Shown: positions 3,295 to 33,399 of the stretch, piece after piece
How the letters are laid out: each line of letters begins with the position of its first letter
Position numbering within the stretch: the stretch's first letter is position 1
Origin: Sulfuricurvum sp.
GTDB lineage: Bacteria > Campylobacterota > Campylobacteria > Campylobacterales > Sulfurimonadaceae
Assembly (NCBI RefSeq): GCF_030691015.1
Contig: NZ_JAUYFF010000019.1
Coordinates: forward strand, 124,001 to 188,000
Reading direction: 5' to 3'
DNA length: 64,000 nt
Notes under the pieces: model-generated
What the model saw: the letters and a program-made list of their open reading frames with translations, nothing else
What the model was told of the DNA's origin: nothing
Databases searched by the model: none
Position numbers and translations under genes: made by a program

Positions 3295-3519
3295 ATGCAA
3301 ACATTAATGCTCGAAGTCAACGAGACTTTTCTATCAAAATTTTTAACCATGTTAGATTCACTTCCAAAAGATCAAGTCCGTGTCAAAGATGATAAATTAT
3401 CAATAGAGATTAAGAATAGAATTTCCGCTATCGATGATGGCAAAGAAGCACTTATACCTCACAATCAGTTTTGGGAAACTTTTGAAGATCGGGTAAAGCA
3501 TTTAAAAAATGCGCATTGA
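3295..3519 (+). CDS. Putative antitoxin of a RelE/ParE-type module
   Basis: This is a 74-residue acidic/mixed-charge protein directly upstream of, and overlapping by 11 bases, a RelE/ParE-like toxin gene. That gene order and overlap are the hallmark of a type II toxin-antitoxin operon. The N-terminal LMLEVNETFLSKFLTML stretch resembles the helix found in short toxin-neutralising proteins, but no DNA-binding fold (RHH, HTH, AbrB) is obvious. The C-terminus (HNQFWETFEDRVKHL) could be the toxin-wrapping helix. The call rests mostly on context. Confidence 0.6.
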   Translation: MQTLMLEVNETFLSKFLTMLDSLPKDQVRVKDDKLSIEIKNRISAIDDGKEALIPHNQFWETFEDRVKHLKNAH

Positions 3520-3793
3520 GTATTCGCCCCGTTTTAATGATGAACTTTTTGCTATTTACCTCTTTATTGCAGAGGATAGCATAACCCAAGCTGACCTATT
3601 TATCTCCAAACTCAAAACTTCTATCGAAAAAATTTCTCCTACGCCGTATCGTCACAGACAATCATTAAAGTCAGATGATAAAGAGGTTAGGGATTTGGTT
3701 TATGAGGGGTATATAGTTGTTTATCGTATTGTTAAAAGCGATAAGCGGATAGATATTATAGGAATTTTCAGTGAAAATGAGTGGGAGTTATAG
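3509..3793 (+). CDS. RelE/ParE-family toxin
   Basis: The 94-residue protein has the compact RelE/ParE layout: MRIEYSPRFNDELFAIYLFI at the start, two helices, then the strand pair VRDLVYEGYIVVYRIVKSDKRIDIIGIFS. The pattern R-x-L-V-x-x-x-Y-x-V-x-Y-R and the closing I-x-I-I-G-I-F are typical of ParE-like toxins. Members either cleave mRNA on the ribosome or poison gyrase; which applies cannot be told here. The start overlaps the antitoxin gene, so the pair is translationally coupled. Confidence 0.75.
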   Translation: MRIEYSPRFNDELFAIYLFIAEDSITQADLFISKLKTSIEKISPTPYRHRQSLKSDDKEVRDLVYEGYIVVYRIVKSDKRIDIIGIFSENEWEL

Positions 3794-3802
3794 GAGTTTA
3801 AA

Positions 3803-4615
3803 ATGATTTTTTATCGAGTTGTAGTCATATTGCTAGTTGTATTTTTTACGGTATATGCAGATGAAAATTCAACTGATATTGATATCAAAACACATGAGTG
3901 TAATGAAAATAGTAACGGGGCGGCTTGTTATGAATTAGGGCAATATTATTCGAAAAGTGACGAATACAATAGCACAAACAATATGTTTTACTTTTATGAA
4001 AAAGGTTGTGCAAAAAAACATGATGAAAGCTGTATTAAAGAAATTGATTTGATTCGAAAAGATTATAAAAAAGCCTCTTCATTTTATAAAATTCAATGTA
4101 ATAAAGTTCCATATAAAAAGAGAGGGTATTTATTTGAATTCAAATGTGTACCTGATATGTATGCTTTGAAATTTGAAAATGTCGGTGATATATATTATGC
4201 AAAAAAAGAGTATGAATTAGCATATAAAAACTATACTACAGCTGGGGGATATGTCAATCCCGAAGCAATCTATAAAGCTTCTTTAATGGAGTTGAATGGG
4301 CAAGGAGTGGAACGTAATATTACTGTAGCAGGACGATATTATCTTTATTACATAGGCAAATCGATTGAAAAAGCAAAATTTCATTTTCCAAAAGAATTAG
4401 AGAGTGGTAGAAAAGATGGAATTATTAAAATTGGATTTAGATTGATGCCCGATGGTAGTTTAGAAAATATTCATCTTGTTGAGTCATCAAAAGATGATCA
4501 AATTGATCAAGCGGTAATGAATAATATGAGTAGTTTGCCAAAATTACATCCAATTCCAAAAGAGTTTAAAAAAGAATATATAGAAATTACTATACCCATC
4601 AGTGTAAGGTTTTGA
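3803..4615 (+). CDS. Secreted Sel1-like/TPR protein with TonB_C-like C-terminus
   Basis: The 270-residue protein starts with a signal peptide (about residues 1-20, hydrophobic, ending near YADEN). A Cys-containing Sel1/TPR-like helical region follows, with repeats such as GAACYELGQYYS and YEKGCAKKHDESC typical of Campylobacterota cysteine-rich Sel1 proteins. The last 65 residues (IKIGFRLMPDGSLENIHLVESS) match the TonB C-terminal fold. There is no membrane anchor apart from the signal sequence, so this is probably a periplasmic or surface-linked protein and not an energy-transducing TonB. The gene is much more AT-rich than its neighbours, suggesting acquisition together with the TA pair. Confidence 0.6.
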   Translation: MIFYRVVVILLVVFFTVYADENSTDIDIKTHECNENSNGAACYELGQYYSKSDEYNSTNNMFYFYEKGCAKKHDESCIKEIDLIRKDYKKASSFYKIQCNKVPYKKRGYLFEFKCVPDMYALKFENVGDIYYAKKEYELAYKNYTTAGGYVNPEAIYKASLMELNGQGVERNITVAGRYYLYYIGKSIEKAKFHFPKELESGRKDGIIKIGFRLMPDGSLENIHLVESSKDDQIDQAVMNNMSSLPKLHPIPKEFKKEYIEITIPISVRF

Positions 4616-4616
4616 T

Positions 4617-5168
4617 GTGAAACACTACCTTATCACCGATCCAACGTTTTACGGCACTACGCCTGATAGACTCGAATCATCACTCGATGTTATCTATTCG
4701 CACACACTCCCCGATTTTGCCCTCTTTCGAGACAAACAAACGACTCATTACCGTGATCTTGCCCAAACTTTTGTCGCGGTGTCGCGGAGTTATCATATCT
4801 TTCGCGTTCTATTGCACGGTGATTATCTTCTTGCACATGAATTGAAAGCGGATGGGGTACATCTAACCTCGACGCAGTTTGACGATATAGCAGAGGCAAA
4901 AAAACTGGGATTGTATGTCGTCATAAGTACCCATAGCCACGAAGAGGCAAAACGTGCACAAGAACTCGGTGCCGATGCTATCACCTATAGTCCGATTTTC
5001 TTCTCTCCTGAGAAGGGTGAACCCAAGGGTTTAGAGGATTTAAAAGAAATAGTGGATAAAATAAGAGTACCTATTTTTGCGTTGGGTGGGATTACGACCC
5101 AAGAGCAGATAAAAGCGGTTGAAGAGTGCGGTGCTTACGGCTTTGCCTCTATCCGCTATTTTATATAA
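4617..5168 (+). CDS. thiE: Thiamine phosphate synthase / TenI family
   Basis: This is a 183-residue TIM-barrel protein starting at GTG 4617, one base after the previous stop, with GTAAGG upstream. Visible family motifs are the phosphate-binding ALGGITTQEQIKAVEECGAYGFASI at the C-terminus, LADGVHL-like KADGVHLTS, and ADAITYSPIFFSPEKGEPKGL, the loop that binds the pyrimidine diphosphate. ThiE joins HMP-PP and thiazole phosphate into thiamine phosphate. The protein is slightly short (usual about 205), so a TenI-type thiazole tautomerase is the main alternative. No TPP riboswitch can fit upstream. Confidence 0.8.
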   Translation: MKHYLITDPTFYGTTPDRLESSLDVIYSHTLPDFALFRDKQTTHYRDLAQTFVAVSRSYHIFRVLLHGDYLLAHELKADGVHLTSTQFDDIAEAKKLGLYVVISTHSHEEAKRAQELGADAITYSPIFFSPEKGEPKGLEDLKEIVDKIRVPIFALGGITTQEQIKAVEECGAYGFASIRYFI

Positions 5169-5185
5169 ATTAAGGAATTTTTCAA

Positions 5186-6613
5186 ATGTTTGAAACCATT
5201 ATCGGTTTGGAAGTTCACGTCCAGCTCAATACCCAGTCTAAACTTTTTTGCTCATGCCCTACCAGCTTTAACCACGAACAAAATACCAACACGTGTCCGA
5301 CATGTTTAGCCCTTCCGGGTGCATTGCCTGTCCTTAATAAAGAGGCAGTTCGTAAAGCGGGGATGTTCGGTACGGCCGTCGGAGCGACGATCAATCGCAC
5401 TTCATTCTTCGACCGTAAGAGTTATTTTTATCCCGATAGCCCAAGTGCCTATCAGATCACCCAACTCTACACGCCGGTTGTCGAACACGGGAAACTCGTT
5501 ATCGATTTCGAAGACGGAAGCCATAAAATGATCCGTATCAACCGCGCGCATATCGAAGCCGATGCGGGGAAAAATATCCATGACGGTGCTATCTCAAAAG
5601 TCGATCTAAACCGTGCGGGGACGCCGTTGCTTGAGATCGTTTCCGAACCCGATATGCGCTCTGCCGAAGATGCGATTTCGTATCTCAAAAAGCTCCACTC
5701 GATTGTCCGTTATATCGATATCTCTGATGCGAACATGCAAGAGGGGTCGTTCCGCGTTGACGTTAACGTCTCTATCCGCCCTCGCGGTGATGAGAAGCTC
5801 TACACCCGCGTCGAGATCAAAAACATCAACAGTTTCCGCTTTATTCAGCGGGCAATCGAACTCGAAGTAGCGCGTCAGAAAGAAGCATGGGAAGACGGTA
5901 CTTATGAGAGCGAGATCGTTCAAGAGACCCGCTTGTTCGACCAAGTGAAACAAGAGACCCGCTCGATGCGCGGTAAAGAGGAAGCGGCGGATTACCGTTA
6001 TTTTCCTGAGCCCGATTTGCTCAAAGTGATCGTGGATGATGCAATGTATGCCGATGTTTGTAATATCCCGGAACTCCCCGATGCGAAAAAAGAGCGTTTC
6101 GTGAGTGAGTTCGGAATCAACGACTATAACGCGGCGGTTATTACGGCAGAACTTGAAACCGCACACTATTTTGAAGCGATGTTAGAGCAGGGAATCAGTG
6201 CTAAAAATGCGGTAACGTGGCTCACGGTTGAACTTCAAGGGCGTTTGAGCGGCGGTATGAGCCCCTCAACTTCGCCGATCAGTGCGGTAATGCTCGGAAC
6301 TCTCGTCAAGCGGATCGAAGAGAGCGTCATCAGTGGTAAAGCGGCGAAAGAGGTTCTCGATTACCTCCTCGAAAATGGCGGGGATATCGATGCGGTTATC
6401 GAAAAACTGGGGCTTAAACAAGTGAGTGACACGGGTGCTCTTGAAGCATTGATCGATGAAATCCTCGCCGCAAACACTGATAAAGTAGCCGAGTATAAAT
6501 CAGGAAAAGACAAACTCTTCGGATTCTTCGTCGGCCAAGCGATGAAAGCATCTAAAGGTTCGGCAAATCCGAATACATTAAACGATATCCTCCAATCTAA
6601 ACTAGCGCAATAA
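5186..6613 (+). CDS. gatB: Asp/Glu-tRNA amidotransferase subunit B
   Basis: The 475-residue protein matches GatB over its full length. It opens with [22 protein letters not shown], has a zinc-type Cys set (CSCP...CPTC), the [19 protein letters not shown] kinase-site motif, and the C-terminal YqeY-like tail ([17 protein letters not shown]) that contacts tRNA. GatCAB converts misacylated Glu-tRNA(Gln) and Asp-tRNA(Asn) to the correct amides. An AAGGA lies about 9 bases before the ATG. It is 17 bases after thiE. Confidence 0.96.
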
Positions 6614-13871: not shown

Positions 13872-16286
13872 TTAGTTTAGTTTTTGAAAATAAGCGCGCA
13901 AAGCGGCGTAATCAAGCGGACGGCTGTGCCAATATCCCTGAATCGCATAGCAACCGATGAAATTTAAGATATCAACCTGCTCTTTCGTTTCAGCTCCCTC
14001 AGCAATGGTCTTCATCTCCAAAGAGGCAGCCAACGTGATAATTGCTTCAATAATAGCTCTGTCTTGATGATCGCTAACAACATCATCGACAAAAGATTTA
14101 TCAATTTTAAGGGTAGATACCGGAAATTTTTTAAGATAGGACATCGATGAATAGCCTGTACCGAAGTCGTCGATTGAAAACGTGATTCCGAGGTTGACGA
14201 GATCGTTCATCTTCTCAATAGCCATCTTCGGATTGCTAACAAGGGCACCCTCTGTGATTTCCAATTCAAGTTTTTCAGCTGGAAAGAGAGTCTCTTCCAA
14301 AATCTCTTTGATTGTCGTATTGAGTGCATTGCTTCGAAACTGTACCGGTGATAGGTTGACCGATAATTTAGGGATGAATCCGATTGTTTTTGAAAGTTCC
14401 ATCATAGAGTTCAGAGCTTCTTTCAAAATCCATTCACCTAAAACAATGATCAAATCGGTCTCTTCGGCAATGGAGATAAATTGTCCAGGATTCATAAATC
14501 CGAGGTCGGGACTTTGCCATCGGACTAAAACCTCTAACCCTATGAATTTATCTTCTTTGGTATCCCATTTCGGCTGATAGACCAGAAAAAGTTCATTGTT
14601 TTTCAATGCTTTTCGCAGACCGTTTTCAATGATGAGTGTTTCGGAGGCAAAATCCCCTTTCGTCGGTTCGAAGAACAGATAGGTATTCTTTCCGTTGATC
14701 TTAGCCCCGTACATCCCCATATCCGCCGCTTTTATAAGCAGTTCGCTGTCCTCTCCGTCTTGGGGATAGAGAGCGATTCCGATACTGGCGGTCATATAAA
14801 TATCATTATTGTCGATAACAAACGGCGTTTTGATAGCTTCGTGAACATTTTTGGCAAATATTTCGACCGTTTTTTTGGAATCGACAAGCGCCGTTATGAT
14901 GGCAAATTCGTCTCCTCCCAGACGGACAATAAAATGATTTTGCTCATTCATGGCCGTGAAACGTTCCGCCAATTTTTGCAAGAGTCTATCTCCTACCGTG
15001 TGCCCGAGCGAATCGTTTACCATTTTAAAGCGGTCTAGGTCGATGTAGAGCAGTCCGAAAGATTGGCCGTTGCTGTTGGCTTGATTGATTCTGCTTTCGA
15101 GTTCGTCACGGAAAAAATTTCGGTTCGGAAGATTGGTGAGCGGATCAAATTTCACTAAATGGCGTATATGCTCTTCGGTCGTTTTGCGGTCTTGTATATC
15201 TTCAATTATACCGATATAGTGGGTGATATTGTTGTTATCGTCGAAAACAGGGGAGATCGTTTCGAAACACCAGTAAATCGCACCGTTCTTTTTGCGATTT
15301 TTAAATTCCCCTTTCCAGGTATATCCTTGTGTGATCGCTGCCCACATCTCTTCATACAATTCGGGAGGGTTTAGCCCCGATTTCATTTTCTTCGGAGTTG
15401 TTCCGATGAGTTCAGATTCTGAAAAACCGTTGATCGTTAAAAAAGCCTGATTGACGTATTCGATAATACCTGATGAATTTGTGATGATAATGCCGTTTGC
15501 ACTTTGCTGCAGGGCATAAGAAAGAATGGACAGTTTTTTCTCATGAATATGGGTAGAGAGCTCGCTTCTGTTCAGGCGCCGCCCCAAAAAGAAAAGGAAC
15601 CCGAAGCCGATAACCCATATGACAAAATGGCTCAGAAGCAATTTTTGTATAGAGCTACTTTTAAATGCGGCAAACAGCTCAAGGGGGATGGTGACATCCG
15701 TCCCCCCCCTGAGTTCACCGACTTTGAGTCCCGTCCATGCGTGACATTTCATACACCCTTGTTCCATATACATCGGCTGCATCACCCGTAAAGAAGCGTT
15801 CCCGTCATTTAGAATCACCTCTTTAAACTCTTTTTTACCGCGGCTCAATTCATCAAGCGCTTTCATCTCCCATGCATCAGGGGCATTTTCCGGATTGAGG
15901 TACATTTTGCCGGTAATACGGGCTTTGATTCCGTAAAGATTGGAGTAGTCATTCATGATTTCGCGTAACATGCTGGCCGGATTGTAAAGGGTCAGTGTCT
16001 GGCCTGAGGGAGAGGTAATGTCGCGCTCTTTAACGTCGGCTAGGAATTCGACAGGCTTGGTATCTTCGTTGACAATAAGATAGGCCCCGCCGTGTCGTGT
16101 CGCCCAGAGCCTGAATGCCCGATCTTTATTGAGGTTTGTTTGGGCTTCGAGTTCAGCAAGCTGCAAAACCTGCTGATTGACATTAATGATATTCCAGACT
16201 AATGATGACATGACTAAAAGCATAAATCCAATTAAGATAAATCGCAAATATCTTGAAAGTACCGATTTTCGAAAGTTTTTAATCAT
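13872..16286 (-). CDS. DUF3365 heme-type sensor with PAS, GGDEF and EAL domains
   Basis: The 804-residue inner-membrane protein has TM helices near residues 13-33 and 216-236. Between them is a periplasmic DUF3365 (Tll0287-like) domain with a c-type heme motif CMKCH (C178, C181, H182). A PAS domain follows (about 255-375), then GGDEF (RLGGDEF near 457) and EAL with the accepted variant EVL (near 585). EAL metal and catalytic residues are otherwise seen (NLSPVQFR, ELEITEGAL, DDFGTGYSS). No RxxD inhibitory site precedes GGDEF. It probably links periplasmic redox or ligand state to c-di-GMP. A run of eight G bases lies in the coding strand at 15702-15709. Confidence 0.9.
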   Translation of the reverse strand: MIKNFRKSVLSRYLRFILIGFMLLVMSSLVWNIINVNQQVLQLAELEAQTNLNKDRAFRLWATRHGGAYLIVNEDTKPVEFLADVKERDITSPSGQTLTLYNPASMLREIMNDYSNLYGIKARITGKMYLNPENAPDAWEMKALDELSRGKKEFKEVILNDGNASLRVMQPMYMEQGCMKCHAWTGLKVGELRGGTDVTIPLELFAAFKSSSIQKLLLSHFVIWVIGFGFLFFLGRRLNRSELSTHIHEKKLSILSYALQQSANGIIITNSSGIIEYVNQAFLTINGFSESELIGTTPKKMKSGLNPPELYEEMWAAITQGYTWKGEFKNRKKNGAIYWCFETISPVFDDNNNITHYIGIIEDIQDRKTTEEHIRHLVKFDPLTNLPNRNFFRDELESRINQANSNGQSFGLLYIDLDRFKMVNDSLGHTVGDRLLQKLAERFTAMNEQNHFIVRLGGDEFAIITALVDSKKTVEIFAKNVHEAIKTPFVIDNNDIYMTASIGIALYPQDGEDSELLIKAADMGMYGAKINGKNTYLFFEPTKGDFASETLIIENGLRKALKNNELFLVYQPKWDTKEDKFIGLEVLVRWQSPDLGFMNPGQFISIAEETDLIIVLGEWILKEALNSMMELSKTIGFIPKLSVNLSPVQFRSNALNTTIKEILEETLFPAEKLELEITEGALVSNPKMAIEKMNDLVNLGITFSIDDFGTGYSSMSYLKKFPVSTLKIDKSFVDDVVSDHQDRAIIEAIITLAASLEMKTIAEGAETKEQVDILNFIGCYAIQGYWHSRPLDYAALRAYFQKLN

Positions 16287-21446: not shown

Positions 21447-21463
21447 TGTTTATTTTTTAATCA
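21447..21463. promoter_or_regulatory. Nitrate-regulon dyad, cobA / precorrin-2 dehydrogenase
   Basis: On the minus strand: TGATTA-AAAAA-TAAACA, a slightly imperfect form of the TGATTA-N5-TAATCA dyad at 25005-25021 and 33383-33399. Its centre is 42.5 bp from the centre of the cobA -10, the same as at the other two sites. It lies 22 bases before the divergent gene's ATG, so one site could serve both. Confidence 0.55.
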
Positions 21464-23647: not shown

Positions 23648-24931
23648 TTATTTCGCGGATACTTTCCAATTATTCACTTTTAAGAGTGCTTCTTTGGTGA
23701 TTTTCGGCGATTTGATCGGAGCGTTATAGATATAATCTACGGATTTGTTCGGATCGAATGTCACACCGTCGATGAATTTTTTCTCTACTTTCCATGGGGT
23801 TGCAGGAAGGGCATAATTAACCTCTTTTGCCGCTTTCGCAAACAGATCAGGGCGATAGACGCTCTCAACGGTTTTCTTCATGTCGATCGCTCTATCGAGT
23901 TGCCCCCAACGGATCATTTGGGTCACTTGCCACAACCCGTGACTGTAGTAGGGATAAAGTGCCTGTTTTTTTCCAAAAACGTTGAAATTCGGCATCGGGG
24001 TATTGACTCCGTTGGTGAACATATAGGTTCCGGTCATAGAGTTGTCGATAACATCTTTCGGAGCATTGACATACGATTTGCTTGAGAGAATAGCAGAGGC
24101 TTCTTTACGGTTTTCCCATGAAGCATCGAGCCACATTCCCGCTTCAATGACCGCTTTGATCATCGCTTTGGTCGTTTCAGGATTTTTATCGGCAAACGCC
24201 TTTTGTACCCCTAATACTTTTTCCGGTCCATCTTGCCAGAGCTGATATCCGGTGACGACGGTTTTACCGATATTTCCCATAACGGCGCGTTGGTTCCACG
24301 GTTCACCTACACAGTAGCCGTCGATGTTTCCGGCGGTCATATTGGCGACCATTTGCGGAGGCGGAACGACTTTGAGCGCGACATCACTGTCGGGGTTAAC
24401 TCCACCGGCTGCCATCCAGTAGCGGACATGGTAGTTATGGGTTCCCGTAGGAAAGGTCATCCCGAACTCAGGAACCCCCATTGTTTTAGACGCGATCACT
24501 TTTTTGAGAGCCACGGCCGAGCCTTTTTTCGTTGCGGTCGGATCAGCGGCCATCATGGCGTCATACATCTTATTCGATACCGTAATCGCATCTCCGTTTT
24601 GACCGAGTGCCATGAGGGCCACCATATCTTTTTTGGTACTTCCCACCCCGAGCGTCGTAGCGATCGGCATTGCGGCGAGCATGTGCGATGCATCGAGTTC
24701 ACCGACGGTCATTTTGTCACGGACGTTTGCCCATGAAGCCTCTTTGCTCAGCTCGACATTTAAGCCGTGTTTGGCAAAGAACCCTTTTTCTTTAGCGATA
24801 ACCAGTGCCGCACAGTCGGTCAAGGGTATGAATCCGATTTTGAGATCTTTTTTCTCCGGTGCCGCCATTACTATGGACGCAGCAAGGGATAGTACGAATG
24901 CACCTTTTCCTAAAATATTCAAGTGTTTCAT
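23648..24931 (-). CDS. nrtA: Nitrate ABC transporter, periplasmic binding protein
   Basis: The 427-residue protein starts with a signal peptide (about 1-23, ending VMAAPEKK). The opening LKIGFIPLTDCAALVIAKEKGFFAKHGL and later motifs (GNIDGYCVGEPWNQRAV) are diagnostic of the NrtA/CmpA binding-protein family, which captures nitrate/nitrite or bicarbonate. The surrounding nitrate reductase genes favour nitrate. It leads the nrtABD operon and carries the shared nitrate promoter and leader motifs just upstream. Confidence 0.92.
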   Translation of the reverse strand: MKHLNILGKGAFVLSLAASIVMAAPEKKDLKIGFIPLTDCAALVIAKEKGFFAKHGLNVELSKEASWANVRDKMTVGELDASHMLAAMPIATTLGVGSTKKDMVALMALGQNGDAITVSNKMYDAMMAADPTATKKGSAVALKKVIASKTMGVPEFGMTFPTGTHNYHVRYWMAAGGVNPDSDVALKVVPPPQMVANMTAGNIDGYCVGEPWNQRAVMGNIGKTVVTGYQLWQDGPEKVLGVQKAFADKNPETTKAMIKAVIEAGMWLDASWENRKEASAILSSKSYVNAPKDVIDNSMTGTYMFTNGVNTPMPNFNVFGKKQALYPYYSHGLWQVTQMIRWGQLDRAIDMKKTVESVYRPDLFAKAAKEVNYALPATPWKVEKKFIDGVTFDPNKSVDYIYNAPIKSPKITKEALLKVNNWKVSAK

Positions 24932-25003: not shown

Positions 25004-25022
25004 GTGATTAAAAAATAATCAC
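25004..25022. promoter_or_regulatory. Nitrate-regulon dyad before nrtA
   Basis: This is a perfect 19-bp palindrome with GTGATTA and TAATCAC arms around AAAAA. Its centre is 43.5 bp upstream of the centre of the -10. It matches the sites at 21447 and 33383 in sequence and distance. The position suits an activator. Confidence 0.6.
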
Positions 25023-25112
25023 TTTTTAGGTTCTTTCTAAATAATAGGAAAAGAGTTTGCAAAAAAGAGAGAAAAAGGTGAACTGTGAGGATAAATCAGG
25101 TCTATAAACGGA

Positions 25113-27005
25113 TCAATACTCGACAAAGGTTAGTGAGAGGAGATCGTTTTTATAGTTGTCTTGCGTTTTATATTCTCGGTAGCCCTCAGAGAGGGCTATT
25201 CCTACAAGGTATTTTTTATCTTCAAATAGGGTAAAACAGTGGGTAGACTCTTCTGCGTTAAAGCGTAATATCTCATTCTCAAGAGGGAGTTGCTGTAATA
25301 ATTTCATCTCGGGATGAGTTGTTGCTATAACAACTCCTTTACGGTCAATAAAGCAAGAGAAACCTTTTTTTGAACTTGAAAAACTATCTTCGAGCATAGC
25401 ATTAAATTGAGGGTATGCATCAAAAACGATTCCGATTCCCCCTAATGTTATCCCATTAGAACGGATAGTTGAACTGTAAATGTAGGTAGGGGAATCGTTA
25501 TAAAACAGGTTGTTTTCAAACGGACTGACAAAATAATTTTGGCTATTTTTATTGGAGAGTGTTTTTGAGATATAGTCTCCGGAAACCTTTTTCCCGATGA
25601 TGGTTTGATCGGATGAAGCGGCGATAATCATCGAATCGGTGTCGTAAATAAAGAGATTGGTATAGACCGTATAGAGACTGTTTATGTAGTGCAATACATC
25701 GCTGATACGTTTAATATCGGGGGTTTCTTGAGAAAGTTCTTCTTCAAATGTCGGAGTCATAGCCCACCATCGGCAGTCGTTGGCTCGTTCATAGAGATTT
25801 CGATCCATGATATTTATGGCTAATTTTGCGGATGCCTGAACATCAAACACTAGCCCTTCCATAATCGTATTTTCGAGATTCGTAACAGACTCTTTTATGG
25901 TTTCTAAAATCGATGTACTTATGTTGCGTAGATTATCCAAAACAGGCGTTAAAACATAGACTCGCTCTTTTGCCGCAATAAGCTCCCCATTAATAATGAC
26001 ATCACTGAGATCTTCGATAACATCATCCGCTTTCATAATAATAGAGCGAATATTATCGTTCAGGGTACATTTAATCTTAGCGGAAGCCGTGGAGGGAAGA
26101 TTTCGGGAATGATTGATTCCATTTTTATAGGCGATACTGTTCCATTTTGCCCCGTGATACCCCTCATACCCTTTTGTTTTTGCTGAAACATAAAGAGATC
26201 CGTTTCGGTAAACATAAGGAGCCTCGGTATCTATGCGGAGAAAATCATTAAGGGATGTGAGTTGATGATCGGATGAGGCTATTACGTCTTTACCGTTTGT
26301 AAAGAGGATGTGCTCGTTGGGGTTCAATAAAGATGAGAAAATATGGGACATTTCATCATCAAAACGAAAACACAAGATGAGAACCCCCAGCGTTTGTTGA
26401 TTTTCTACAATTCTTTGGGCAAATAAAAGCGTTTTGGGCTGGGAAATAAAAAGATCGGTCTGCGCATATCGTTCAATATAGCCATCATAGTGGAGTGCTT
26501 CGGTGATAAGGGGATCATCTGAATGGGTTAATGCATTGTTTTCGTTGATGTTGAGGCGAATATTTCCTTTGTCATCCGTAATGATTATTTCATTATAAAC
26601 ACTGTACTTCAGTGTATATTCGATGAGACGCTGACGAAGCTGTTCAGGATTTTTGTTCTCTTTAAGATAGGTGATGATCGATTCATCTGTTGCTAAAAAT
26701 CCGACATCCGCTGTACGTTCAAAAAGATTCCGGATTAATATATCGATACTTATTTGGGCTTTTGAACGTAATTCTTCGGTATGTTTTTTTAGATTTTCAT
26801 CGATGAGCAGAGGGATAAGTTCCTCTTGGAGGCTACTGAATGTTTCAATCGTTTTTTCAGTAAAGGAGAATAGGTTTGCCGCTTGTTCAATTGCGCATAT
26901 TTTTCCGGTGAGGATGATTTTTTTTAAGAATCTATTTTGTCCGTCAAATAGTTGCACATTTCTTTGAATAAACGGAAAAAGTTGTGAAATACTGGACGAT
27001 TGCAT
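25113..27005 (-). CDS. Soluble tandem-Cache-like sensor without output domain
   Basis: The 630-residue protein has no signal peptide and no membrane segment. It contains two related units. The first starts with IDILIRNLFERTADVGFLAT (residues 87-106) and the second with INIMDRNLYERANDCRWWAM (397-416). Each is followed by a PAS-like Cache fold with strands such as EIIITDDKGNIRLNI and LFIYDTDSMIIAAS. The end (LSEGYREYKTQDNYKNDLLSL) resembles the segment that in related proteins, from memory, leads into CheW; here the protein stops. No kinase, GGDEF, MCP or HTH domain is present. It lies between nrtABD and an Rrf2 regulator, so nitrate or redox sensing is the contextual guess. Confidence 0.7.
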   Translation of the reverse strand: MQSSSISQLFPFIQRNVQLFDGQNRFLKKIILTGKICAIEQAANLFSFTEKTIETFSSLQEELIPLLIDENLKKHTEELRSKAQISIDILIRNLFERTADVGFLATDESIITYLKENKNPEQLRQRLIEYTLKYSVYNEIIITDDKGNIRLNINENNALTHSDDPLITEALHYDGYIERYAQTDLFISQPKTLLFAQRIVENQQTLGVLILCFRFDDEMSHIFSSLLNPNEHILFTNGKDVIASSDHQLTSLNDFLRIDTEAPYVYRNGSLYVSAKTKGYEGYHGAKWNSIAYKNGINHSRNLPSTASAKIKCTLNDNIRSIIMKADDVIEDLSDVIINGELIAAKERVYVLTPVLDNLRNISTSILETIKESVTNLENTIMEGLVFDVQASAKLAINIMDRNLYERANDCRWWAMTPTFEEELSQETPDIKRISDVLHYINSLYTVYTNLFIYDTDSMIIAASSDQTIIGKKVSGDYISKTLSNKNSQNYFVSPFENNLFYNDSPTYIYSSTIRSNGITLGGIGIVFDAYPQFNAMLEDSFSSSKKGFSCFIDRKGVVIATTHPEMKLLQQLPLENEILRFNAEESTHCFTLFEDKKYLVGIALSEGYREYKTQDNYKNDLLSLTFVEY

Positions 27006-27146
27006 GCCGTTACACCTATTCTACCGTTAAGATATATTTTTATAGATGTAATGATATCTGAGATTAAGAGAGGGTGTGGGTTTAATATAATCATATAGTT
27101 GTTTAAAATATATACATACAGGTGAATTTCAAACGATGAAAATGGA

Positions 27147-27572
27147 TTAAATTCGTTTGATTCTGCGTTGAAGAATATCGTCGGTGATTTCACTCAGACA
27201 CATCGCGTCATACATCTCTAGCATCTCTTGACGCCATTTATCCCATTGTGAATGAAGTGCGCACGGTTTTTCACTTTCACAGTTTCCGATACCGAGAACG
27301 CACGCATCAAAGAAGGTTGATCCATCTACGGCATCAATGATAGAGAGTAGGGTGATCTCAGAAGCATCACGAGAGAGAGTAACTCCCCCTGCAGCTCCTC
27401 GTTGAGAGATTATGATTCCGGCATGAACCAATTTTTGAAGTGATTTGGCCATAAAATGGAAAGGAAGATCAAGTGCTTCGCTGATCTCTTGTATCCGATG
27501 AAATTCCCCTACGGGCTTGGTTGAGAGCCACACGGCAGCACGGATAGTATCTTGGCAAGCAGAAGAGAGCAT
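27147..27572 (-). CDS. Rrf2-family Fe-S-type transcriptional regulator
   Basis: The 141-residue protein has the Rrf2 winged-helix layout: an N-terminal helix (LSSACQDTIRAAVWLSTKP), recognition region (ISEALDLPFHFMAKSLQKLVHAGIIISQRGAAGGVTL) and a C-terminal cysteine loop C-x6-C-x5-C (CVLGIGNCESEKPC) of the type that binds a [2Fe-2S] or [4Fe-4S] cluster in IscR/NsrR. It is the only DNA-binding regulator I see inside the nitrate locus. Its own upstream region (27591-27602) shares the 12-mer ATAATAGTGTAA with the cobA promoter (21410-21421). Nitric oxide, redox or Fe-S status could be the signal. Confidence 0.88.
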   Translation of the reverse strand: MLSSACQDTIRAAVWLSTKPVGEFHRIQEISEALDLPFHFMAKSLQKLVHAGIIISQRGAAGGVTLSRDASEITLLSIIDAVDGSTFFDACVLGIGNCESEKPCALHSQWDKWRQEMLEMYDAMCLSEITDDILQRRIKRI

Positions 27573-30389: not shown

Positions 30390-32030
30390 CTATTTTGACA
30401 CGTAGAGGACAAACGTCCAAACTTCAAGAATCAACATGATAAAAAACCCGATTTTATAAAACGTAGCGGGTGAGCGTTCGATAAGCGGTGTTTCTTTGCA
30501 AAAAAACGGTTTAACTTTTTCGGGTGCCTTCAGTTCATAAAATAATTCAGAATAGTGAGCGTAGCGCTGATTTGTTGAGATTGCAATGGCACGCATTATG
30601 ACAGAATCAAGCCACATCGGAATATTTTTATTTAGCTGCGCGGGGCGTTTGGGGGATTTAAAGATCGGTGTTTGAAACGGTTCAATTTCTCCGTAGGGAA
30701 ATTTTCCGGTAAGTGCCCAATATAAGGTGACTCCAATAGAGAAAATTTCGGTAGATTCGTTAATGACGCTTCCGTTGAAACGCTCAGGGGCGAGATAGGT
30801 AGGGGTGCCGGCACGGGAATTAGTAGAGAAAATCTGAACAATGGAGCCGAAATCGACCATCTTGAAATCGACTCCCGCTTCCCCCTCTTTTTTATAAACG
30901 AGGATATTCTCAGGTTTTATATCGCCGTGAACAAGACCCAAATGGAGCAGATGCGCTTCGGCACGATGGAGGAATTTTCCAAGAGAAATGGCATTATCGA
31001 CGGAGAGAGGACGATTTTTAAGATACTCTTGGAGATTTACCCCCTCCACCAGCTCCATCAGATAATAGCGCATACTTCGCTCATTGGGTACCCACGCGTG
31101 CCCAAACGCTTTGTGGGTGATTTGTTTGGCGTACCATGCTTCATGGACAAATGCATCGAGAGTCTCTTCATCATCCGCGTAGAGAGGAAATTTCATCACA
31201 CAGACGTCATCCCCTTTGGCTACTTTCCAAATACGCGCATGCGCCATCATAGGGCTGATAAGCGTGTATCCGTCGATGATTTCACCAACGTTGAGGGTCT
31301 CAGGTATCGGGAGGGGGATATTTTTAAGTGCGTGAAGCGGATCAAGAGAAATAATCCGGAAGATTTGGAGGCTCATATCATCACGATTTTCCGGCGCACA
31401 ATTTTGGGAGGCGTGATGGATTAGTGTGGAAGCACCTAATCCTTTATGAATCAAATCCGCAAAGGTTCTTTCATCTATAAGGTTATAAACACCGTCACTG
31501 CACATAATAAGCGTGTCACCCACACCAATAGGTGTTGAGAGTATACTCAACTCGATATTTTCACTCAAGCCGCATGCGGAGGTTAAGACATGGGACATGT
31601 ATTCGTCATCCATGGTATGATCACGTGTAAGACGGCAAAGTTCTCCCTTTGCTGTGAGAAGATAGATACGCGAATCACCGAGATGAAGAGTGTAGAGGTT
31701 TTCTCCCTCAATCACAGCAAGGCATAGTGTCGTAAGCAGTTCGATTTTCCCGTATTGGGTCATCGACTCTTTAAATAACAGAGAATTGATATGACGGGTA
31801 AAAACCTCCATGGTTTTAGGAATATCCCATGCCTTCGGACGATTTTTGAACTGATCAATAAAGAATTTGACACATTGGCGTGCGGCGGTACCGCCTCTTG
31901 CAGCACTACCGACTCCATCGCACAGTACACTGACTAACAACGCATTGTCAATGATAGTGAAGGCACACGAATCATCCCCTGTTGAGGAGTCTTTAGGGAG
32001 GATGAATTCGGAAGATTGAAGTTCTAACAT
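30390..32030 (-). CDS. PP2C phosphatase-Ser/Thr kinase fusion
   Basis: The 546-residue protein has an N-terminal PP2C phosphatase (about 1-235) with metal-site motifs DDSCAF, DGVGSAARGG, MCSDGVYN and DDMSL. A Hanks-type kinase follows (about 255-500): the lysine in VCVMKF, catalytic VHGDIKPENIL, the metal-binding DFGS and LAPERF. A single C-terminal membrane helix ends it (FFIMLILEVWTFVLYV). All main residues of both enzymes are present. It begins 2 bases after the NarK-type gene. A similar fusion next to a nitrate transporter is known in Pseudomonas (PA1782/PA1783, recalled), so it probably adjusts nitrate uptake or assimilation. Confidence 0.9.
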   Translation of the reverse strand: MLELQSSEFILPKDSSTGDDSCAFTIIDNALLVSVLCDGVGSAARGGTAARQCVKFFIDQFKNRPKAWDIPKTMEVFTRHINSLLFKESMTQYGKIELLTTLCLAVIEGENLYTLHLGDSRIYLLTAKGELCRLTRDHTMDDEYMSHVLTSACGLSENIELSILSTPIGVGDTLIMCSDGVYNLIDERTFADLIHKGLGASTLIHHASQNCAPENRDDMSLQIFRIISLDPLHALKNIPLPIPETLNVGEIIDGYTLISPMMAHARIWKVAKGDDVCVMKFPLYADDEETLDAFVHEAWYAKQITHKAFGHAWVPNERSMRYYLMELVEGVNLQEYLKNRPLSVDNAISLGKFLHRAEAHLLHLGLVHGDIKPENILVYKKEGEAGVDFKMVDFGSIVQIFSTNSRAGTPTYLAPERFNGSVINESTEIFSIGVTLYWALTGKFPYGEIEPFQTPIFKSPKRPAQLNKNIPMWLDSVIMRAIAISTNQRYAHYSELFYELKAPEKVKPFFCKETPLIERSPATFYKIGFFIMLILEVWTFVLYVSK

Positions 32031-33382: not shown

Positions 33383-33399
33383 TGATTAAATAATAATCA
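33383..33399. promoter_or_regulatory. Nitrate-regulon dyad before the NarK-type gene
   Basis: TGATTA-AATAA-TAATCA is a perfect dyad centred 42.5 bp from the centre of the -10. It is the third copy of the motif in this locus. Confidence 0.6.

Follow-up and report, generated by a model that had tools for sequence, protein, structure and literature searches.

dCache proteins are usually extracytoplasmic and joined to an effector, and a protein of this kind that is neither raises the question of what it senses and how it could pass the signal on. Such a protein is encoded in a nitrate-uptake locus of Sulfuricurvum sp., within the 64,000-nucleotide stretch of DNA analysed here (the window). An earlier note made from the sequence alone had taken the position of the gene, between the nrt importer and an Rrf2 regulator, to suggest a cytoplasmic ligand sensor that works through partner proteins.

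Architecture and duplication of the protein

The gene and the parts of its product, with the evidence for each, are:

25113-27005, minus strand: stand-alone tandem dCache protein, 630 aa (ORF; orthologues of constant length; AlphaFold2 model)
26808-26915, minus strand: N-terminal conserved helical segment, residues 31-66 (ILTGKICAIEQAANLFSFTEKT...), helix break at 37-39 (conservation)
26112-26693, minus strand: first dCache domain, residues ~105-298, with a long entry helix bearing RNLFERTADVGFLATD (model, Foldseek)
25926-26057, minus strand: conserved linker between the dCache domains, residues 317-360 (EDLSDVIINGELIAAKERVYVLTPVLDNLR), helix break at 348-351 (conservation)
25119-25763, minus strand: second dCache domain, residues 415-629, with a long entry helix bearing DRNLYERANDCRWW (Pfam Cache_WalK at 447-499, model, Foldseek)

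The gene is real because orthologues at 64-86% identity have the same length. As the earlier note had described, the protein shows no signal peptide (N-terminus by inspection), no membrane helix (best 19-residue Kyte-Doolittle window 1.2) and no effector or output domain by Pfam or NCBIfam, and it carries the shared RNL-ER--D motifs as RNLFERTAD (residues ~92-100) and RNLYERAND (~402-410). Cache_WalK at residues 447-499 was its sole Pfam match; Pfam found neither a C-terminal CheW domain nor an MCPsignal domain (PF00015), NCBIfam placed the protein in no family, and a PDB sequence search returned no relatives. It is an ancient cytoplasmic protein of two dCache modules without an output domain. 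The open-access literature searched yielded no paper on Cache proteins of the cytoplasm or on Cache-CheW proteins, annotation of tandem-dCache genes beyond partial Cache matches was not found in this analysis, and the window protein is apparently uncharacterised.

An AlphaFold2 model built on a 46-row alignment (mean pLDDT 86, pTM 0.83) places in order a helix (11-36), a break, a helix (40-104), a dCache domain, a helix (317-347), a break, a helix (352-414) and a second dCache domain. Foldseek matched it to the ligand-binding domains of DctB, Tlp3 and PctA (TM-score <=0.74 on the target), with which it has the dCache_1 fold in common; those sensor domains are periplasmic, whereas the window protein has neither signal peptide nor membrane helix. 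Both domains keep the fold in the AlphaFold2 model of the most divergent group. Aligned to each other by Smith-Waterman, the two halves of the window protein score 96 against 39 +/- 6.5 for 1000 shuffles, none of which scored as high, and their profile-profile comparison gives E = 1e-21. Model, Foldseek and half-to-half alignment agree that the protein is an internal duplication of a two-helix segment plus dCache domain; the repeat reported in the earlier note is real and spans helices as well as dCache domain, because the halves are duplicates. The R-x-W-[YF] core of the amino-acid dCache_1 motif, represented in PctA by R126, W128 and Y129 (PMC10104139), is missing in 46/46 members, and an amino-acid ligand is thus unsupported by motif.

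Between stand-alone members of distant Campylobacterales families, residues 31-66 are 55% and residues 317-360 are 58% identical, whereas the dCache domains there reach 15-21%. L32, T33, G34 and K35 are invariant in the stand-alone alignment, N339 and G340 in 46/46 aligned members, stand-alone and CheW-fused alike. The stand-alone segments read LTGKISSL--A--LF-(Y/F)ME-T and (E)DL-DVVINGEIIASK-R-Y-L-P-L-NIR; in the CheW-fused clade the helical segments are no better conserved than the sensor domains. Such a contrast, variable sensors against constant helices, points to the helical segments as the putative output or docking part. They are described here as predicted helix segments with a break; their description as hairpin tips was dropped, since in a second model the N-terminal segment is one unbroken helix.

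The nitrate locus and its palindrome

The surroundings of the gene in the window comprise:

23648-24931: nrtA, adjoining the window gene on one side
27147-27572, minus strand: Rrf2-family regulator (Pfam Rrf2, 1.5e-25), given as context and not shown to be a partner
25026-27146, limits approximate: block missing in relatives, lying between the stop of Rrf2 and the conserved region upstream of nrtA (flank alignments)
25005-25021 (nrtA), 33383-33399 (narK) and 21447-21463 (cobA): palindrome TGATTA-N5-TAATCA, 72-73 bp before each gene

The gene thus lies between nrt importer and Rrf2 regulator, as the earlier note had stated. In eight related genomes with the nrt operon, however, Rrf2 stands directly upstream of nrtA, the promoter region is continuous and the tandem-dCache gene is absent; L235 and three further genomes have an empty site to which both flanks of the block align. 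Because eight genomes have an empty Rrf2-nrtA site, the window gene is an insertion in this lineage, and its place beside the nitrate-uptake genes results from a recent insertion in this one strain. The empty sites rule out a conserved nitrate locus. Only one of the 10 genus orthologues, that of the window, adjoins nrt, the closest (86% identity) being located elsewhere; this narK was present in 14 of 33 family-bearing genomes searched, among which the window genome alone has it close to the gene, and some family members occur in genomes without it. The neighbourhood survey with nrt/nas genes therefore found no conserved linkage, and the functional tie to the nrt locus is not supported as the earlier note stated it, nor did the positions of narK and nifH relative to family genes show a general linkage.

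What remains of a nitrate link is of two kinds. In two Sulfurimonas MAGs a relative lies between narK and a molybdopterin (nap-type) reductase operon, and the palindrome precedes many family genes. In the window, TGATTATTTTTTAATCA has three matches at <=2 mismatches against 0.06 expected, the one at cobA lying also 21 bp before sirC. With a free spacer and <=1 mismatch, TGATTA-N5-TAATCA was found between -250 and +60 of 21/132 family genes against 1.5 expected, most of these matches coming from one Sulfuricurvum clade, with perhaps six independent cases. It stands at -86 of the CheW-fused paralogue in the same genome, before the stand-alone genes of L008, L011, L052 and L107 and before an operon of PAS, MCP and sensor genes in L036; by reading of the sequence, it also lies between a CheW-fused gene and a divergent ammonium-transporter-like gene in Denitrovibrio (L179). 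The palindrome is a candidate operator in a nitrogen regulon and may be the site of the adjacent Rrf2 regulator, and the tandem-dCache family may belong to such a nitrogen-related regulon. Upstream of the window gene itself the palindrome is absent (best 3 mismatches, p = 0.26), and the gene's address is no evidence for membership.

Also in the window, at 30390-32030 (minus strand), between the GGDEF gene and narK, a PP2C-type phosphatase and a Ser/Thr kinase apparently form one chain; in L033 a relative of it is found near a tandem-dCache gene, and in L241 next to Rrf2-nrtA. At 13872-16286 (minus strand), a PAS-GGDEF-EAL-like protein carries an N-terminal CMKCH c-type haem motif, on reading of its sequence a possible redox or gas sensor.

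Stand-alone and CheW-fused clades

The window genome also encodes a paralogue (L002) with 41% identity and the same body, followed by a C-terminal CheW domain (dCache_1 1.8e-16, CheW 3.2e-15). Such Cache-CheW fusion proteins share with the window protein the tandem body of helices and dCache domains, the RNL[FY]ER motifs and N339-G340, but differ from it by the CheW domain and by lacking the LTGKISSL / INGEIIASK form of the segments. The fused rows form one clade apart from the stand-alone rows (SH-aLRT 100) in a tree with several long branches and unsure deep joins. A hidden CheW or MCP-binding domain as the known architecture had been named in the earlier note as speaking against its reading: the architecture with CheW exists, in the same genome even, but as a separate sister clade, and structure prediction and profile search found dCache folds and no CheW in the window protein.

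Across 41 genomes of the genus, the stand-alone form was found in 10, at 64-100% identity and with intact frames of 633-645 aa (630 aa in the window), and the CheW-fused form in most family-bearing genomes. Within the order, 24 genomes from nine Campylobacterales families carry an intact stand-alone form, many of the survey genomes being MAGs, and orthologues without CheW conserve a length of about 620-685 aa. In a scan of named genomes, the stand-alone form turned up in Methylomonas, Methylotuvimicrobium, Alteromonas, Paraglaciecola, Neiella, Halorhodospira, Desulfovibrio and Solidesulfovibrio, and the CheW-fused form in Rhodocyclaceae, Acetobacterium, Geobacter, Seleniivibrio and others, with Azospira also a carrier of the fused form. 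Methylotuvimicrobium buryatense is one species with a stand-alone gene. Wide distribution, conserved length and a separate clade argue that the stand-alone form is old and stable and not a truncation.

One member (L096 1-2413, G090) is split over two frames with an internal stop, a broken copy or an assembly error. Sulfuricurvum nif-type loci with similar neighbourhoods hold the stand-alone form in L036-L040 and the CheW form in L042, L044 and L045; these neighbourhoods contain ald, NifA-like, tpx and mostly also flavodiiron genes.

CheO of C. jejuni, a cytoplasmic chemotaxis protein without known domains and with homologues reported in Sulfuricurvum (PMC9665402), resembles the window protein as a cytoplasmic Campylobacterota protein without annotated domain. 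The guaA-purD genes of eight Campylobacter-like genomes (~484-496 aa) are unrelated to the tandem-dCache family (hmmsearch --max, best E 0.012, 7.5 bits), which rejects identity with CheO; judged by this comparison, the Sulfuricurvum CheO homologue of PMC9665402 must be another gene.

Chemotaxis association and proposed role

MCPs are regarded as the main route of chemotaxis input, beside a few recent cases of CheW-fused sensors. Stand-alone genes form operon-like pairs with chemotaxis genes in several genomes: CheV (CheW plus receiver) genes adjoin them in L081, L082, L084 and L085, an MCP gene lies 8 bp downstream in L107, and further MCP genes adjoin them in L137, L142 and L110. Near the stand-alone gene of L110 there is also an ammonium transporter fused to a GGDEF domain (3446-5284). 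In three loci the stand-alone gene directly follows a CetB-like PAS gene and an MCP gene on the same strand, overlapping or abutting:

L036, 8777-12559 (also L038, L039): operon of CetB-like PAS, MCP and stand-alone tandem-dCache genes

In these Sulfuricurvum-type genomes the MCP of the operon lacks a ligand-binding domain; its two membrane helices lie close together, and a CZB domain stands at its C-terminus. MCP, CheV, GGDEF or EAL genes make up 22/220 neighbours (10%) at +/-1-2 but 13/357 (3.6%) at +/-3-7 (p = 0.002, a test that treats loci as independent though they are related by descent). Many stand-alone loci have no signalling neighbour, and the window gene is flanked by nitrate genes and a PAS-GGDEF gene, with no che gene nearby.

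CheA co-occurs with the family: in an order-wide sample it was present in 62/62 family-bearing genomes (three of them marginal matches) against 185/237 others (p = 1.5e-6), by genus in 28/28 against 40/53 (p = 0.002) and for the stand-alone form only in 25/25 (p = 0.007), statistics that ignore kinship. CheA is also a correlate of motility at large. For the genus, in which nearly every genome has CheA, the co-occurrence is uninformative, and CheA was not seen in G022, a MAG with a family-gene fragment.

The chemotaxis associations and the CheW-fused sister clade would be most simply explained by a sensor with input to the array, one clade carrying CheW in cis and the other relying on it in trans. 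We favour, with some reserve, the reading that the window protein is a cytoplasmic sensor of a chemosensory (CheA) system whose coupling domain is supplied in trans. The earlier note's two cytoplasmic Cache units without an effector are supported, as is its proposal of a sensor that probably acts through partner proteins. The two dCache domains, each following a two-helix segment, would bind an intracellular ligand or sense the metabolic state, and the change would travel via the long helices and reach the pair of strictly conserved helical segments. These segments would dock on array components: CheW, CheV, CheA or a receptor that lacks a sensor domain. The same sensor is joined covalently to CheW in the sister clade; the stand-alone clade would receive its coupling domain in trans. 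Docking on the array, the partner, the direction of the signal and the nature of the ligand are what we infer, contact with array components from genomic association.

Two tested systems offer precedents. Treponema denticola CheWS is one for CheW-fused cytoplasmic sensing that reaches the array via a CheW-linked sensor (PMC10653840), but there a CheR-like SAM-binding sensor is fused to CheW, whereas the window protein has dCache domains and no CheW in its chain. The bipartite energy-taxis receptor CetA/CetB of C. jejuni provides one for a separate cytoplasmic sensor protein serving a receptor (PMC2628428); CetB is a single PAS domain, unlike the window protein, and the CetB-like/CetA-like pair that precedes the stand-alone gene in L036, L038 and L039 is absent beside the window gene.

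Other readings account for parts of these data. The protein could be a sensor partner of c-di-GMP enzymes instead of the chemotaxis array, GGDEF or GGDEF-EAL genes lying within two genes in the window and in L032, L033, L073, L105, L110, L131, L133 and L147; these are frequent throughout the genomes concerned, with mixed orientations, and the covalent fusion found in the family is to CheW and not to GGDEF, which leaves this reading rather unlikely. A cytoplasmic sensor of nitrate or nitrite, acting on nrt/nas expression via the adjacent Rrf2 regulator, would fit the place of the window gene, the two Sulfurimonas loci and the palindrome common to nitrate promoters and many family genes, but it is unlikely given the eight empty Rrf2-nrtA sites, the 86%-identical orthologue away from nrt, the distance of narK from the gene in all searched genomes but that of the window, the family members in genomes without this narK, and the window gene's own lack of a palindrome.

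Two rivals relate the protein to its fused counterpart. As a modulator or decoy it would form hetero-dimers with the CheW-fused paralogue through the shared helices and tune it, without a docking site of its own. Both forms do occur together in eight genomes (G000, G012, G017, G018, G020, G025, G027 and G313), yet outside Sulfuricurvum and Sulfurimonas most genomes with the stand-alone form show no CheW-fused one, and the helical segments differ between the clades, so we regard this as improbable. A truncated, decaying CheW-fused gene would explain why the protein ends where the paralogue's linker to CheW begins; length conservation and phylogeny refute it, with intact frames of similar length in ten genus orthologues (64-100% identity) and 24 order-level genomes and clade-specific conserved segments in an old separate clade, and it deserves next to no credence.

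Going beyond the favoured reading of an array-feeding sensor, the stand-alone members might, tentatively, represent a separate class of cytoplasmic array input protein, in which a constant pair of helical docking segments carries variable dCache sensors. The segments would make direct contact with the CheA/CheW/CheV layer or with a sensor-less receptor, there being neither an MCP signalling domain nor CheW in the same chain, and the protein would signal nitrogen or redox status. A widespread family whose sensor half occurs both free and fused to CheW would offer a clean test of detachable cytoplasmic input to the array, and it gives a named, testable family to genes found from sulfur-oxidising Campylobacterota to methanotrophs and Desulfovibrio.
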